Positions 25,686 to 31,270 of a stretch of DNA of 49,876 bases are shown here, piece after piece. This DNA is from Candidatus Izemoplasma sp. (lineage in GTDB: Bacteria > Bacillota_I > Bacilli_A > Izemoplasmatales > Izemoplasmataceae). The position numbers and the translations under genes are program-made. The stretch spans positions 1 through 49,876 of the forward strand of contig SLOP01000033.1 of NCBI GenBank assembly GCA_007132465.1, given 5' to 3'. Every line of letters starts with the position of its first letter. The first letter of the stretch is position 1. Below the pieces are notes generated by a model, which worked only from the letters and a program-made list of their open reading frames with translations, searched no databases and was not told the origin of the DNA.

Positions 25686-25689
25686 CATG

Positions 25690-25713
25690 AAGGCGGTCAC
25701 GACCGCCTTTTTT
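25690..25713 (+). terminator. Rho-independent terminator of the nusA-infB operon
   Basis: Seven GC-rich base pairs (25692-25698 with 25701-25707), extendable by A-T pairs, a 2-base loop and six T. Confidence 0.9.
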
Positions 25714-25723: not shown

Positions 25724-25746
25724 AATCAGCGTAAGGAGGCGTGCGC

Positions 25747-27513
25747 ATGCTCAAAGAAAAACTCGCTCACGTGCCACAAAAACCAGGCTCATATCAAATG
25801 CGCGATGCGCACGGAAACATCGTGTATGTCGGCAAGGCAAAGAACCTTAAACACCGCCTGACCAGCTACTTTACCGGTTCGCACGATCACAAAACCACAA
25901 AGCTGCTCACCGTCGTTGAAGACATCGATTATATCGTTACCAAGAGCGAACTCGAAGCCTTGATCTTAGAGATTGACTTAATCAAAAAACATCAACCGCG
26001 CTATAACGTTCTCCTCACCGACGACAAAACCTACCCCTACATCGAAATCACCGATGAACGGCACCCGAAGTTGGTGGTTACGCGCACGTTGGCAAAAACC
26101 AAAAAGCATCTTTTCGGGCCTTACCCAAACGTCCATGCTGCCCGCGAAACCCTCGACGTGCTGAACAAACTTTACCCGCTTCGCAAATGCCAAACCTTGC
26201 CCAATGAACCATGCCTATATTACCATTTAGGTCAGTGCCTTGCGCCCTGCATTCACCAGGTTGATCAACGCGAATACGAGGGCATCATCAAAGAGATTAC
26301 GGCTTTTCTCAAAGGACGCACCCAACCGGTGGTCGACACCTTGAAAACGAAGATGCACGCCGCCGCCGACGCCCTCGAGTTCGAGCGGGCTCAAGAATAC
26401 AAAGACACCATCGATGCCATTCATACAACCACGAGCAAGCAAGCCGTGAACCTCGACGACCTTGCCGATCGTGATGTCATCGCCATCGCCCATGACGACA
26501 ACCATGTGGCCGTAGACATGTTTTTCGTGCGCAGCGGTAAAATCGTTGCCCGTGACAAACGGCTGGTGCCATACTACCTCGACACGACCCACGCCGTCTT
26601 GGATTACGTCACGCAGTTTTATGAAGCCTACCCGGTGCCCAGCGAAATCCTCACCAACGAACCCGAGACCCTCGCGCCGCTTGAGGCCTTGCATAACACC
26701 GTCGTACGCCACCCCAAACGGGGCGCTAAGCGGCGTTTACTGGAGCTGTCTTTCGATAACGCCAACGAACAACTCACGGCAGAAACCGGCCGCTTGCGGG
26801 CGCAAACGGAGAAGACGTTTGGTGCGCTCGATGACCTTGCCGAACTCCTTGACATTCCAACGCCCTATCACATCGAAGCGTTCGACAACTCGCACTTGTT
26901 TGGCACCTACCCCGTCAGCAGCATGGTGGTGTTCAAAAACGGCAAACCGGCAAAACAAGATTATCGGAAATACAAGTTAAACCAAACCGACACCCAACAA
27001 GGCGACACCCAACAGATGGAAGAGGTGCTTTATCGTCGCTACCGGCGCGTGTTGCTCGATGACCTCACACGGCCCGACTTAATCGTGGTCGACGGAGGCA
27101 TTCATCAGATGAACACCGCCAAACGCGTGCTCGCTGCCCTCGACATCGACATTCCCGTGGTCGGGCTGGCCAAAGATAAGCGCCATATCACCAGCCACCT
27201 CATCGATTGGCGGGACAATGCCTTTGAACTCGACCGCCATTCCCCGTTGTTTAGGTTGCTGGCCTTTATCCAAGAAGAAGCGCACCGTTTTGCGGTAAGT
27301 TTCCATCAAACCTTACGCGCCAAAGGCGTGTACGCGACCATCCTTGACACGATTGATGGCGTCGGTGCGAAAACGAAGAAAAAGCTGCTTGACCGTTTTA
27401 AAACCGTCGAGGCCATGAAAAAAGCCGAGTTCGATGCGTTTATCGCCCTTGGCATTCCCAAAAAAACGGTGCAAAACATCCAACGCGCGTTGAAAGAAAA
27501 TGGTGATGCATGA
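25747..27513 (+). CDS. uvrC: UvrABC excinuclease subunit UvrC
   Basis: Makes both incisions during nucleotide excision repair. The N-terminal GIY-YIG nuclease is visible (PGSYQMRDAHGNIVYVGKAKNLKHRLTSYF), then a UVR segment, then the RNase-H-like nuclease (HIEAFDNSHLFGTYPVSSMVVFKNGKP, LIVVDGGIHQMNTAKRVL) and C-terminal helix-hairpin-helix (TIDGVGAKTKKKLLDRF). 588 residues. ATG 25747 is 7 bases after AAGGAGG; an in-frame GTG at 25741 is too close. Confidence 0.97.
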   Translation: MLKEKLAHVPQKPGSYQMRDAHGNIVYVGKAKNLKHRLTSYFTGSHDHKTTKLLTVVEDIDYIVTKSELEALILEIDLIKKHQPRYNVLLTDDKTYPYIEITDERHPKLVVTRTLAKTKKHLFGPYPNVHAARETLDVLNKLYPLRKCQTLPNEPCLYYHLGQCLAPCIHQVDQREYEGIIKEITAFLKGRTQPVVDTLKTKMHAAADALEFERAQEYKDTIDAIHTTTSKQAVNLDDLADRDVIAIAHDDNHVAVDMFFVRSGKIVARDKRLVPYYLDTTHAVLDYVTQFYEAYPVPSEILTNEPETLAPLEALHNTVVRHPKRGAKRRLLELSFDNANEQLTAETGRLRAQTEKTFGALDDLAELLDIPTPYHIEAFDNSHLFGTYPVSSMVVFKNGKPAKQDYRKYKLNQTDTQQGDTQQMEEVLYRRYRRVLLDDLTRPDLIVVDGGIHQMNTAKRVLAALDIDIPVVGLAKDKRHITSHLIDWRDNAFELDRHSPLFRLLAFIQEEAHRFAVSFHQTLRAKGVYATILDTIDGVGAKTKKKLLDRFKTVEAMKKAEFDAFIALGIPKKTVQNIQRALKENGDA

Positions 27514-27514
27514 C

Positions 27515-28396
27515 ATGCAGATGATCTACGGAAAAATACTCAACATCGACGACGATTTGCGCACGTTAACGCTTGATGTGCGACGCCGTCGCATGACGTT
27601 TTACATTCAGCGCAGCACCTTCTCACGCTATCTACCTTACTTTCAGAAGGGCAACATGATCGTGGCTACCTACCACACCCGCGACACCGTCAAACACGCA
27701 CATCGTCGCCACACCGTGAACGACATCGTGCGCATCGTCAAACCGGCACGAAGGGGCGGGCACGAACTGTTTAGCCACCGCGCCTTAAAACACCAAACGC
27801 GCGCCTTCATCAACGGGCTGCGGCATAAGGTGTTTCTCGATCTTGAAATGGCGATGCACCCGTTTTATCGCCAAGACGATTTCACGCAAGAAGTCATTCA
27901 GGCGGCTTATGTGTTGACCGATGAGCGCGATAACATCGTGACCTCTTACGCCGCTTTTGTCCAACCGACGAAACATAAAAAACTCACCAAACGAACGCTT
28001 AAGTTTCTTGGCATCACCCAAGACGACGTCGACGAAGGCATCTCGTTTGAAGCGTTTTATCAACACTTTCTCGAGGTCATCAACACCTACGACCCGGCCG
28101 TGATCACCTGGGGTGGCAACGACGCCATTGCGATGGCCGAAAGCGCGCGCATCAACAACCTGCCTCCGCTCGGTGGAGACGCACGATTTGTCAACTTGCT
28201 CAACTTGCACAAGAACGTGTTCCGTCTCCAAAACGATCTCGGGTTGCTTAGGGCGTACAACGTGTACGGCCATACCCGCGAAAACCAGCGTCACGACGCC
28301 ATGGAAGACGCAATGATGACAATGAAAATCTTCAACGGGTTCAAAGCTTACTTGAACGACGCGTTAACCCTCGATTCCGAGGTCATGCCTAAATAG
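27515..28396 (+). CDS. DEDDh-family 3'-5' exonuclease
   Basis: About 293 residues. An N-terminal domain of about 100 residues is uncharacterised. The C-terminal part is an RNase T/DnaQ-type exonuclease: ExoI FLDLEMA, ExoII-like ITWGGNDAIAM, and ExoIII HDAMEDAMMT, so the catalytic D-E-D-H-D set looks complete. The start is uncertain: the gene overlaps uvrC and several in-frame ATGs (27500, 27506, 27515, 27521) exist; GGTGAT before 27515 fits best. The family overlap resembles KapD/PolC-type exonucleases; the substrate is unknown. Confidence 0.82.
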   Translation: MQMIYGKILNIDDDLRTLTLDVRRRRMTFYIQRSTFSRYLPYFQKGNMIVATYHTRDTVKHAHRRHTVNDIVRIVKPARRGGHELFSHRALKHQTRAFINGLRHKVFLDLEMAMHPFYRQDDFTQEVIQAAYVLTDERDNIVTSYAAFVQPTKHKKLTKRTLKFLGITQDDVDEGISFEAFYQHFLEVINTYDPAVITWGGNDAIAMAESARINNLPPLGGDARFVNLLNLHKNVFRLQNDLGLLRAYNVYGHTRENQRHDAMEDAMMTMKIFNGFKAYLNDALTLDSEVMPK

Positions 28397-28407
28397 GAGG
28401 TGTCTGG

Positions 28408-29559
28408 ATGTTTGAGATGGTAAAGAAACACCACAAGCAACACCACAAAAAAGCCCCAGTGGGTGTGGTGTTTGTTCCAGGGCGGTTGGCGTTTATCGGC
28501 GAACATCTCGAAGAACACGGCGGGCATGCGCTGCTTGGCGCAACCAAGGAAGGCGTGACACTTGCCTATGGCGAGCATCCTGAAAGGGAAATTCGTTATT
28601 TTGATGACACGATGGAGTCGCCGCGACGCATCGATCCGTTGGCTGAACCCGGTCTATCGGAGAGTCAACAAGCGTGCGTCGTTGAAGCCGTGATGCACAA
28701 ACTCCACAAAGAACTCGGCGACTTCCCCAAGGGCGTTCAGTTGACGATGACGCACGATTTACCCCAGTTCGCTTCGTATGCAGGCGACACGGCTTTGGCG
28801 CTTGCCATTATCGAGGCGCTATGCGCCATGTTTGGGTGTGATATTGAAGCCGAAAAACGCGTCCGTATTGTCAACGGTGCCTTTCGCGACATCCTGCGAA
28901 CATCGCGGCGCGATAACGACCTTATCACGCAAACCTTCGCCAAAAAAGACCACCTCGTCTACAACCACACAGTGGCACAAACACATGCGTTGTTGCCGTT
29001 TAAGTTTGATCATCTCGTGATTCGTGCCTACGCACCTGACAAGGTGCACGACGAATCCTATGAACGCCATAAAAAACGCGTCCGCACCCTCAATGAGGTG
29101 GCCGACGTCTTGGCGACATACCGCCCCATCAACCACCTTTGTGACATGGCGATCAAGGACTTCACGGCCTGCAAACCGCACTTGAGCGGCGGCAGCGTGC
29201 TGAAACACGCCGAACACATGGTTTTTGAAAGCGATCGTGTCATGAACATTAAAACGGCGCTTGACATTGAAGACCTCGAGTGGTTCGCGGCGGCCATCGA
29301 ACAATCAAGCCGCTCGCTGGTGGAACTCTATGAGTACGTGCCAAACGACCTTGGCTTTTTGCTTGACATCGCCACCACACAACACACACTTGCAGCCCGC
29401 GCCGCCAATAAAACTCCCTATCAACTTGTCTACACTCTCGCCACCGAAGTTCCTTCGGCGGAAAACGAAATTGTTGAACGCTACGAACGGACGTACAAGA
29501 AAAAACTCACCATCCTTAATTTCGTGGCTTCAGACGGCCTTAGACGCTATAGCGTTTAA
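28408..29559 (+). CDS. Galactokinase-like GHMP protein, probably a pseudokinase
   Basis: The 383-residue protein aligns with galactokinase at the N-terminus: FVPGRLAFIGEHLEEHGGHALLGATKEGVTLAYG (residues 22-55) matches the sugar-binding signature of GalK. The ATP-binding motif 2, normally PxGxGLSSSAA, reads DLPQFASYAGDTALA (118-132). The motif-3 Gly-rich loop near the C-terminus is also missing, replaced by AARAANKTPYQLVYTLA. An Asp at about 169-171 could be the catalytic base. ATP binding is therefore doubtful, and the function is unknown. An AGGAGGTG site precedes ATG 28408. Confidence 0.72.
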   Translation: MFEMVKKHHKQHHKKAPVGVVFVPGRLAFIGEHLEEHGGHALLGATKEGVTLAYGEHPEREIRYFDDTMESPRRIDPLAEPGLSESQQACVVEAVMHKLHKELGDFPKGVQLTMTHDLPQFASYAGDTALALAIIEALCAMFGCDIEAEKRVRIVNGAFRDILRTSRRDNDLITQTFAKKDHLVYNHTVAQTHALLPFKFDHLVIRAYAPDKVHDESYERHKKRVRTLNEVADVLATYRPINHLCDMAIKDFTACKPHLSGGSVLKHAEHMVFESDRVMNIKTALDIEDLEWFAAAIEQSSRSLVELYEYVPNDLGFLLDIATTQHTLAARAANKTPYQLVYTLATEVPSAENEIVERYERTYKKKLTILNFVASDGLRRYSV

Positions 29560-29560
29560 A

Positions 29561-29590
29561 AAAGAGCCCATCGCAACCTGCGATGGGCTT
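29561..29590. terminator. Bidirectional terminator before rnjA
   Basis: 11-bp perfect stem (29565-29575 with 29579-29589) with 3-base loop. On the minus strand it is followed by a T-rich tract (complement of a run of A), ending the RNase J gene; on plus it follows the GHMP gene. Confidence 0.88.
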
Positions 29591-29593
29591 TGC

Positions 29594-31270
29594 TTATACC
29601 GTTTTGATGACGGGTAAAATCATTGGGTTACGTTCAGTCTTGGTGTAGATGTGGTCGTTAAGCAGACGCGTGATGTCACGACGCAGTTGGGAAAGGTTCA
29701 TCGTCGGGTGGCTTGTGAGTTTTTCACTGACGAGGGCGTGCACCATGTCGCTGATTTCGTTGGTGAGCACGGTATGATCACGCATGTACACAAACCCACG
29801 CGACATGATGACGGGCTTACCAATCGGTTTATGTTTGTCTTTGTCAAGCGTCACAATGGCGCTAAGCAAACCGTCTTCGCTTAACATTTTTCGGTCGCGA
29901 AGCACCACCGAGCCGACGTCGCCAATGCCCTTGCCGTCGATGTAGATGCTGCCGGCTTGAATCTTGCCGGCGATGCGGGCGTTGTTTTGGCTGACGGCGA
30001 GCACATCGCCATTATCCATCAAGAACGTGTTTTCACGTTTCACGCCACAAGCAATGCCGATTTCCGCATGCGCTTTCAACATCCGGTACTCACCGTGAAC
30101 CGGCATGAAATACGTCGGTTTAATCAACTTCAGCATCAATTGAAGCTCTGGCTTTCCGGCGTGGCCGGACGTGTGCGTGTCGGTGAGCGGTGAGTGCGTG
30201 ATGACGTTAGCGCCGCGCCTAAAGAGCTGATTGACGGTACGCGACACGCTGGTTTGATTGCCGGGAATAGGGCTCGATGAAAAGATTACCGTGTCACCGG
30301 ATTGGATCTTGATTTGCCGGTGCGAGCCGTTGGCGATACGCGAAAGCGCCGCAAACGGTTCACCTTGTGACCCGGTGCAGATGATGGTGATTTCATTATC
30401 TTTGAAATGTTTCAGCGCACGCGGTCCGACAAACGTGCCGTGGGGCGCTTTGATGTAGCCCATCTCTTGACCAACTTCAATGGTGCGCTCCATGCTGCGT
30501 CCAAAGACGGCGATCTTACGGTTCGTGCTGATTGATGCCTCAACCATCTGTTGCACGCGATGGATGTTTGACGCGAAGGTGGCGACGATGGCCCGGCCTT
30601 CGATTTTGGCGAAAATCTCACGGAGGTTTTCACTGACCGTGGTCTCGCTTTTGGTGAAGGCGTCGAGCTCGGCGTTGGTGGAATCGCTGAGCAAAAGCAG
30701 CGTTCCTTTTTGGCCAAGACGAGCCATTTTGGTGTAACTGGCATCTGGGCCAGTCGGGGTGAAGTCGAATTTGAAGTCGCCTGTCAGCACAATGTTGCCT
30801 TCGGGCGTACGAACGACGACGCCATGGGAATCGGGTATCGAGTGATTGGTCCGGAAAAAGCCGACGCTCACCTGCTTAAAACGCAATATGTCGTTATCGA
30901 AATATTCAAGCAGTTGGTAGTTAATGTGGCTGTGTTCTTGCATCTTGTTTTTAATCAAGCCGACCGCCAATCCGTTGGCGTAAATCTTCGGAATGGTGAT
31001 GTCTCGAAGAAGCCAAGGGATGCCGCCGATGTGATCTTCATGACCGTGCGTAATCACAAGCGCTTTGATTTTATGCTCGTTTTCTTTCAGATACGTGTAA
31101 TCGGGAATGACGTAATCGATGCCAAGCAGATGTTCGTCTGGGAACATGATGCCGGCGTCGATGATGATGATTTCATCCTGATACTCAACACAATACATGT
31201 TTTTTCCGACTTCGCCGAGACCGCCCAATGCAAACACACCGACTTCGTGTCGTTTCAAAAGTTGCTGCAT
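29594..31270 (-). CDS. rnj: Ribonuclease J
   Basis: Metallo-beta-lactamase/beta-CASP nuclease with 5' exonuclease and endonuclease activity in mRNA turnover and rRNA maturation. The zinc-binding HGHEDHIGG is at residues 75-83; TGDFKFD and the beta-CASP signature GSQGEPFAALSRIA follow, then SGHAGKPELQLMLKLIKPTYFMPVHGEYRML. Length 558 is normal for RNase J1/J2. The ATG 31270 follows AGGAGGA on the minus strand. It is a single copy in this window and monocistronic. J1 or J2 cannot be decided. Confidence 0.96.
   Translation of the reverse strand: MQQLLKRHEVGVFALGGLGEVGKNMYCVEYQDEIIIIDAGIMFPDEHLLGIDYVIPDYTYLKENEHKIKALVITHGHEDHIGGIPWLLRDITIPKIYANGLAVGLIKNKMQEHSHINYQLLEYFDNDILRFKQVSVGFFRTNHSIPDSHGVVVRTPEGNIVLTGDFKFDFTPTGPDASYTKMARLGQKGTLLLLSDSTNAELDAFTKSETTVSENLREIFAKIEGRAIVATFASNIHRVQQMVEASISTNRKIAVFGRSMERTIEVGQEMGYIKAPHGTFVGPRALKHFKDNEITIICTGSQGEPFAALSRIANGSHRQIKIQSGDTVIFSSSPIPGNQTSVSRTVNQLFRRGANVITHSPLTDTHTSGHAGKPELQLMLKLIKPTYFMPVHGEYRMLKAHAEIGIACGVKRENTFLMDNGDVLAVSQNNARIAGKIQAGSIYIDGKGIGDVGSVVLRDRKMLSEDGLLSAIVTLDKDKHKPIGKPVIMSRGFVYMRDHTVLTNEISDMVHALVSEKLTSHPTMNLSQLRRDITRLLNDHIYTKTERNPMILPVIKTV

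Follow-up and report, generated by a model that had tools for sequence, protein, structure and literature searches.

A galactokinase-derived pseudokinase gene next to kapD in Izimaplasma-like bacteria, probably kept for a non-kinase function

Sequence comparisons support the conclusion that a galactokinase (GalK) homolog encoded next to the exonuclease gene kapD in Izimaplasma-like bacteria has lost its catalytic motifs throughout one clade while purifying selection holds the gene in place. We consider it probable that this dead galactokinase, a pseudokinase with the GHMP fold, owes its retention to a second, non-kinase function and works as a module that binds proteins or serves as an adaptor, with KapD as a candidate partner. 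The gene lies in what we call the window, the whole stretch of DNA analysed here, a contig of 49,876 bases from a draft genome of 1.43 Mb (99% complete) that belongs to a group of wall-less marine bacteria.

The window gene, its neighbours and its product

The pseudokinase gene is the third gene of a presumed transcription unit and is followed by a convergent gene for RNase J1. The features of the locus are, by position in the window:

25689-25710, + strand: terminator-like hairpin 5' of uvrC (consensus match only)
25741-27513, + strand: uvrC, which opens the presumed transcription unit uvrC-kapD-pseudokinase (Pfam/NCBIfam)
27500-28396, + strand: kapD-like DEDD exonuclease gene, adjoining the pseudokinase gene upstream (Pfam/NCBIfam)
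28395-28402, + strand: AGGAGGTG, resembling a ribosome-binding site and overlapping the kapD stop codon (read from the sequence)
28408-29559, + strand: GalK-derived pseudokinase gene, 383 amino acids (homology searches, trees, landmark alignment)
28477-28524, + strand: residual sugar signature PGRLAFIGEHLEEHGG, canonically PGRVNLIGEHTDYxGG (landmark alignment)
28762-28797, + strand: nucleotide-motif position, with PQFASYAGDTAL replacing P..xGLSSSAAL (landmark alignment)
28897-28935, + strand: catalytic-base segment, RRDNDLI for SGIMDQF, with Asp D171 retained (landmark alignment)
29398-29424, + strand: position of the C-terminal Gly-rich loop, with RAANKTPYQ replacing RMTGAGFGG (landmark alignment)
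29565-29589, - strand: terminator-like hairpin separating the pseudokinase gene from convergent rnjA (consensus match only)
29594-31270, - strand: rnjA (RNase J1), the convergent downstream neighbour (Pfam/NCBIfam)

The gene opens with an ATG and runs through 383 codons in an undamaged frame at exactly 28408-29559 (+), as a preliminary description of the sequence had stated, and the profile matches upstream, to uvrC and to a KapD-like DEDD exonuclease, agree with the genomic setting given there. The two hairpins bracket uvrC, kapD and the pseudokinase gene; both are consensus matches only, and the regional total of such matches is near the shuffled mean. In the KapD-like protein, the RNase_T domain is preceded by about 110 N-terminal residues that match no Pfam family.

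On the evidence of its sequence, the product is certainly a distant, full-length homolog of GalK. It matches the Pfam family GalKase_gal_bdg (PF10509) above the cut-off (8.5e-09, 35.3 bits against 23.1), and this domain is found at E <= 0.01 in all 13 rows of alignment A1. The GHMP N-terminal ATP domain PF00288 scores 22.1 bits against a cut-off of 22.3 with the protein and 24.3 bits in a six-frame search, and is matched by 4 of the same 13 rows. The NCBIfam galactokinase model NF003705 is hit at 9e-29, yet with 100.4 bits against a curated cut-off of 385. The match of the window protein to the galactokinase of L. lactis (1pie) stands at 1.8e-07, and a profile of 13 eroded relatives reaches the same protein at 1.2e-53 over positions 15-357 of 385.

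Two AlphaFold models were obtained, one from the window protein and L038 (pLDDT 31.7) and another from an alignment that included two GalKs from viral contigs (mean pLDDT 56.2, mostly above 65 in the N-terminal part and below 50 in residues 297-383), which can be used in its N-terminal part only. The best structural matches of the second model are galactokinases, 1pie with Z 20.5 and rmsd 9.4, and 6zfh_B with Z 19.9 and rmsd 2.5 over 187 aligned residues of the N-terminal part, although this agreement is partly circular because GalKs were present in the model's input alignment.

Erosion of the active site and selection on the gene

Searches with the window protein gave matches in 41 of 61 genomes, and searches with the eroded profile in 76 of 90 genomes of the order. 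After ORF extraction, both nucleotide motifs were found to be eroded in 18 copies, all within the window's own, Izimaplasma-like family and thus in 18 of its 49 genomes. By genus they are distributed over g1, that of the window (5/5), g14 (6/6), g16 (5/6), g2 (1/1) and g13 (1/1). Among 296 genomes drawn from the class, none of the matches listed (E <= 1e-60, 50 of 296) exceeded 300 bits outside the family. A contig scan found a 73% identical copy on a 'Candidatus Izimaplasma' metagenome contig, and scans of viral contigs yielded few GalKs or none. Within the eroded clade, identity falls to about 20%.

We compared the 18 eroded copies with 43 intact GalKs in a landmark alignment that, like all the analyses built on it, leaves out the broken GalK of G082; the 43 are the extracted rows only, and further GalK matches exist. 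The roles of the landmarks as sugar, nucleotide and catalytic residues are known from the galactokinase literature. Each landmark is retained in 41-43 of the 43 intact rows. The eroded rows keep the Arg of the sugar signature in 4, the Glu in 10, the His in 5 and the Asp of HTD in 10 of 18 cases, and the three Ser of GLSSS in 2, 1 and 0, counts that are partly definitional since the labels eroded and intact were set by eye on the motifs. The catalytic Asp and the Tyr column survive in three rows each; for the C-terminal loop, its four Gly are found in 2, 6, 1 and 1 rows. A complete GAGFGG occurs in none of the 18, the nearest form being GLGFGG in G005, and no catalytic landmark is retained clade-wide, the remnants differing from member to member (GLSS in G016, for instance). 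Two of the otherwise intact GalKs, L043 and L044 (G006, G021), read GIMDP where nearly all others have GIMDQ.

The window protein still carries R26, E32 and H33 within PGRLAFIGEHLEEHGG as well as the catalytic D171, with Glu in place of the HTD aspartate. A recognisable sugar signature together with the disappearance of GLSSS and of the C-terminal Gly loop had been noted in the preliminary description, and the alignment confirms each of these observations (PGRLAFIGEHLEEHGG, PQFASYAGDTAL and RAANKTPYQ). Because both nucleotide motifs are missing, phosphotransfer by the window protein appears very unlikely. The losses are real and not a matter of chance, because a relative of 72% identity shows the same ones and 16 further relatives are eroded too. 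A sequencing frameshift was likewise rejected, given that the alignment is unbroken throughout and the 72% identical relative agrees.

Conservation in the eroded clade, taken per column, falls in the catalytic segments, where the landmark positions are among the most variable of all (pair identity 0.07-0.39), and rises in segments 97-112, 225-288 and 353-368. Seven positions, H9, K98, E102, R239, F252, E269 and F273 in the numbering of the window protein, are invariant in all 18 eroded copies. These seven vary in ordinary GalKs, K98 being present in 4, E102 in 7 and E269 in 6 of the 43 intact rows.

That the gene is under selection, as had been proposed from the undamaged frame, is borne out by the codon-position bias in a clade whose catalytic motifs are eroded in 18 of 18 members. 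The window copy and its 72% identical counterpart in G002 differ at 77, 55 and 216 first, second and third codon positions, with pS 0.744 and pN 0.174; dN/dS is left out for this pair because synonymous change is near saturation, and amounts to 0.160 for a second eroded pair, G027 and G086. An open frame of about 380-400 amino acids is present in 18 of 18 eroded copies. The one feature that would suit a decaying pseudogene on its way to being lost is the rate of change, the pseudokinase being 72% identical between the window and G002 genomes as against 78-92% for infB, rbfA, uvrC, kapD, rnjA and HAD, and less conserved than uvrC, kapD and rnjA in every eroded pair compared. The strong third-position bias, the universally open frame and the seven positions that stay invariant at about 20% identity leave that reading with a negligible chance, and we rejected it on the codon-position bias and the invariant positions. 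For the intact pair G006/G021, kapD is less conserved than GalK. A galK that is truly decaying does exist at the uvrC-kapD site of G082 (C9:47307-48463, L127), where it is broken up and a 321-codon ORF is left; the undamaged window gene differs from it.

Signature positions and the order of events

Four genomes, G006, G021, G015 and G007, carry at the same uvrC-kapD site a GalK that is catalytically intact by its motifs, behind a LacI-type regulator. Downstream of the GalK, G006, G015 and G007 have galE and/or galT together with an alpha-galactosidase-like gene, and in G021 the contig ends there; the neighbour labels at the intact loci were verified by Pfam for ten proteins. In the GalK trees all four stand outside the eroded clade, in which 18 of 18 members are eroded, so the comparison of orthologs for an intact PxGxGLSSSAA motif leaves the pseudokinase reading standing.

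We defined a signature of 13 positions, picked as conserved in the eroded clade and poorly conserved in intact GalKs. Eroded members match it at 11-13 positions; among intact GalKs, G006 and G021 match at 13 and G015 at 12, the other 40 at 0-6. Between the pairs of this trio, signature identity is 0.92, 0.77 and 0.85 as against 0.68, 0.46 and 0.48 elsewhere in the protein, and in 517 other intact GalK pairs of 0.40-0.60 overall identity it has a mean of 0.19 and a maximum of 0.62, a control biased low by the way in which the 13 positions had been picked. The trio mean of 0.85 compares with 0.32 (sd 0.08) at variability-matched positions and was reached in 0 of 20000 draws, the sharing between sisters being partly plain ancestry. 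The sequence data show that the signature arose neither together with the loss of catalysis nor later. As it is already found in three GalKs with intact catalytic motifs, the second, non-kinase constraint seems to be older than that loss.

How often catalysis was lost is judged differently by different trees. The eroded rows form one clade in GalK trees of 41 rows (13 eroded; support 99/97) and of 62 rows (18 eroded; 100/97; G039, with its very long branch, left out), as well as after removal of the catalytic and signature columns (92/93; G082 and eight o_ rows left out), and the nearest intact rows to it are G006, G021 and G015 (98/94 with 62 rows, 98/88 with the trait columns removed). These trees, together with an AU test of one clade of 'g1 eroded + 4 intact' (p 0.046), speak for a single loss in the ancestor of the eroded copies, after which a galK operon would have re-entered the kapD site in G006, G021, G015 and G007. 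Trees of the surrounding genes place the same four genomes with eroded g1, both for infB+uvrC (100/99; 29 rows, without G004 and G016) and for five flanking genes (99; 31 rows, with eroded G016 apart); moreover, fast rows may attract each other. The AU tests as a whole are borderline, a second value of 0.106 (G082 and eight o_ rows left out, as for 0.046) and one of 0.12 with the trait columns removed giving no rejection. The different catalytic remnants of the eroded members (GLSS in G016, GLGFGG in G005, the Asp in three) favour an ancestor whose site was still largely intact. Taken together, this suggests two or more losses of catalysis among the descendants of a signature-bearing ancestor, a history towards which we lean slightly, and we allow the single loss a substantial chance that stays short of even.

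Very divergent GalK-like proteins in G039 (C4, L077), with matches in genus g18, belong to another family of the order. GLSSS is still present in the G039 protein, whose branch is the longest in the tree; the substrate of these proteins may be other than galactose.

Possible roles of the pseudokinase and comparison with known systems

In all 18 eroded loci kapD lies directly upstream on the same strand. The next gene is convergent rnjA in 12 of them; it lies 1-2 kb further away in three (G005, G078, G088), was not seen in G080 within the 2.4 kb up to the contig end, and in G019 and G079 the contig ends too early to show it. In G005 (L067:5903-7292) the pseudokinase gene is separated from rnjA by two additional ORFs, one of which has a CGYACP motif. 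The kapD gene is present in 42 of the 49 family genomes, many of which are without the pseudokinase.

We picture the ancestor at this site as a bifunctional protein, kinase and something else at once, comparable to K. lactis Gal1; upon loss of the gal operon at the site the enzyme half would decay and the other half stay. The present protein, presumably made from the uvrC-kapD transcript, would most likely serve as a module for protein binding or as an adaptor, using helical surfaces that lie away from the former active site, a role that we propose because the helical framework and charged and aromatic positions outside the catalytic segments stay conserved. KapD would be the first candidate partner because it is the sole neighbour present in 18 of 18 loci, which is a guess from gene order alone; mere operon inertia may account for the adjacency and explains the 18 of 18 equally well. 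More tentatively, and with considerable doubt, we suggest that some galactokinases of the family are bifunctional and that their second role, embodied in H9, K98, E102, R239, F252, E269 and F273, was retained as a pseudokinase after kapD, usually before rnjA, when two or more lineages had each lost the gal operon on their own. This would be a bacterial replay of the step from GAL1 to GAL3, perhaps in the service of nucleic-acid metabolism.

There are two rival readings of the protein's role. The protein might still be an enzyme or ligand-binding protein whose pocket was re-tooled for a new substrate in each subclade, as conserved letters specific to subclades in the old active-site segments would suggest (RPKFILNADI and LPKNLGxHA in g14, PAHHL in g16, NKT in g1). 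Such motifs may, however, reflect close kinship only, and clade-wide the landmark positions are among the most variable while the new constraint lies elsewhere, so we hold this reading to be unlikely. Less probable again is a sensor of galactose and nucleotide that works without phosphorylation, a role like that of yeast Gal3, which the preliminary description had considered possible. R26, E32 and H33 of the window protein are a remnant in its favour, and the clade profile finds the Gal3 structures 3v5r and 3v2u, as any GalK profile would. The yeast sensors are described as binding galactose and ATP (PMC7556753), and of the residues concerned the eroded rows keep the Arg, the His, the catalytic Asp and the Tyr column in 4, 5, 3 and 3 of 18. 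In the window genome no other GalK was detected, the remaining GHMP matches scoring little against galactokinase, nor was a GalT. Galactose sensing is therefore improbable, the sugar-site residues being mostly lost in the clade, and the suggestion is not supported. Across the eroded genomes, a second, intact GalK is encoded elsewhere in 6 of 18 (G004, G005, G016, G017, G079, G080) and GalT in 4 (G005, G017, G079, G080); GalT was not found in the other 14, the drafts being incomplete, and is present in 10 of the 10 family genomes tried that have an intact GalK only.

Returning to the protein-binding module, its relation to ordinary bacterial GalKs (L. lactis 1pie, NF003705) is one of full-length homology and, in the model, apparently the same N-terminal fold; unlike them, the eroded clade is without the nucleotide motifs and most catalytic residues, and the window protein falls far below the NF003705 cut-off. 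The GHMP fold has been reused elsewhere without ATP chemistry, in the C. elegans sex-determination protein XOL-1, which lacks kinase activity. XOL-1 is eukaryotic, and we know of no GalK origin of this kind for it. Sugar-kinase-like proteins placed in another machine are also found in plants, where FRUCTOKINASE-LIKE 1 and 2 of the pfkB family are described as components of the plastid RNA polymerase (PMC3409070); theirs is a different kinase superfamily, and the polymerase association is theirs. The closest parallel is yeast Gal3, described as a galactokinase-derived pseudoenzyme with a bifunctional relative in K. lactis Gal1, so that a galactokinase fold there has outlived its activity in a non-kinase role (PMC7556753). 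The yeast proteins are reported in the same source to bind galactose and ATP and to act on Gal80, whereas in the bacterial clade, which follows uvrC and kapD, both sites are eroded and the window genome is without a detected galactose pathway. In the titles and abstract beginnings of the open-licence papers searched, no bacterial galactokinase-derived pseudokinase was found.

The well-studied galactokinase pseudoenzyme, Gal3, is eukaryotic. Here, intact signature-bearing GalKs and eroded relatives occur at one chromosomal site, so that the proposed succession, with the second function coming first and the loss of catalysis later, can be tested from sequences and at the bench. If the proposal is true, some bacterial GalKs that are annotated simply as galactokinase would have an unrecognised non-kinase role.
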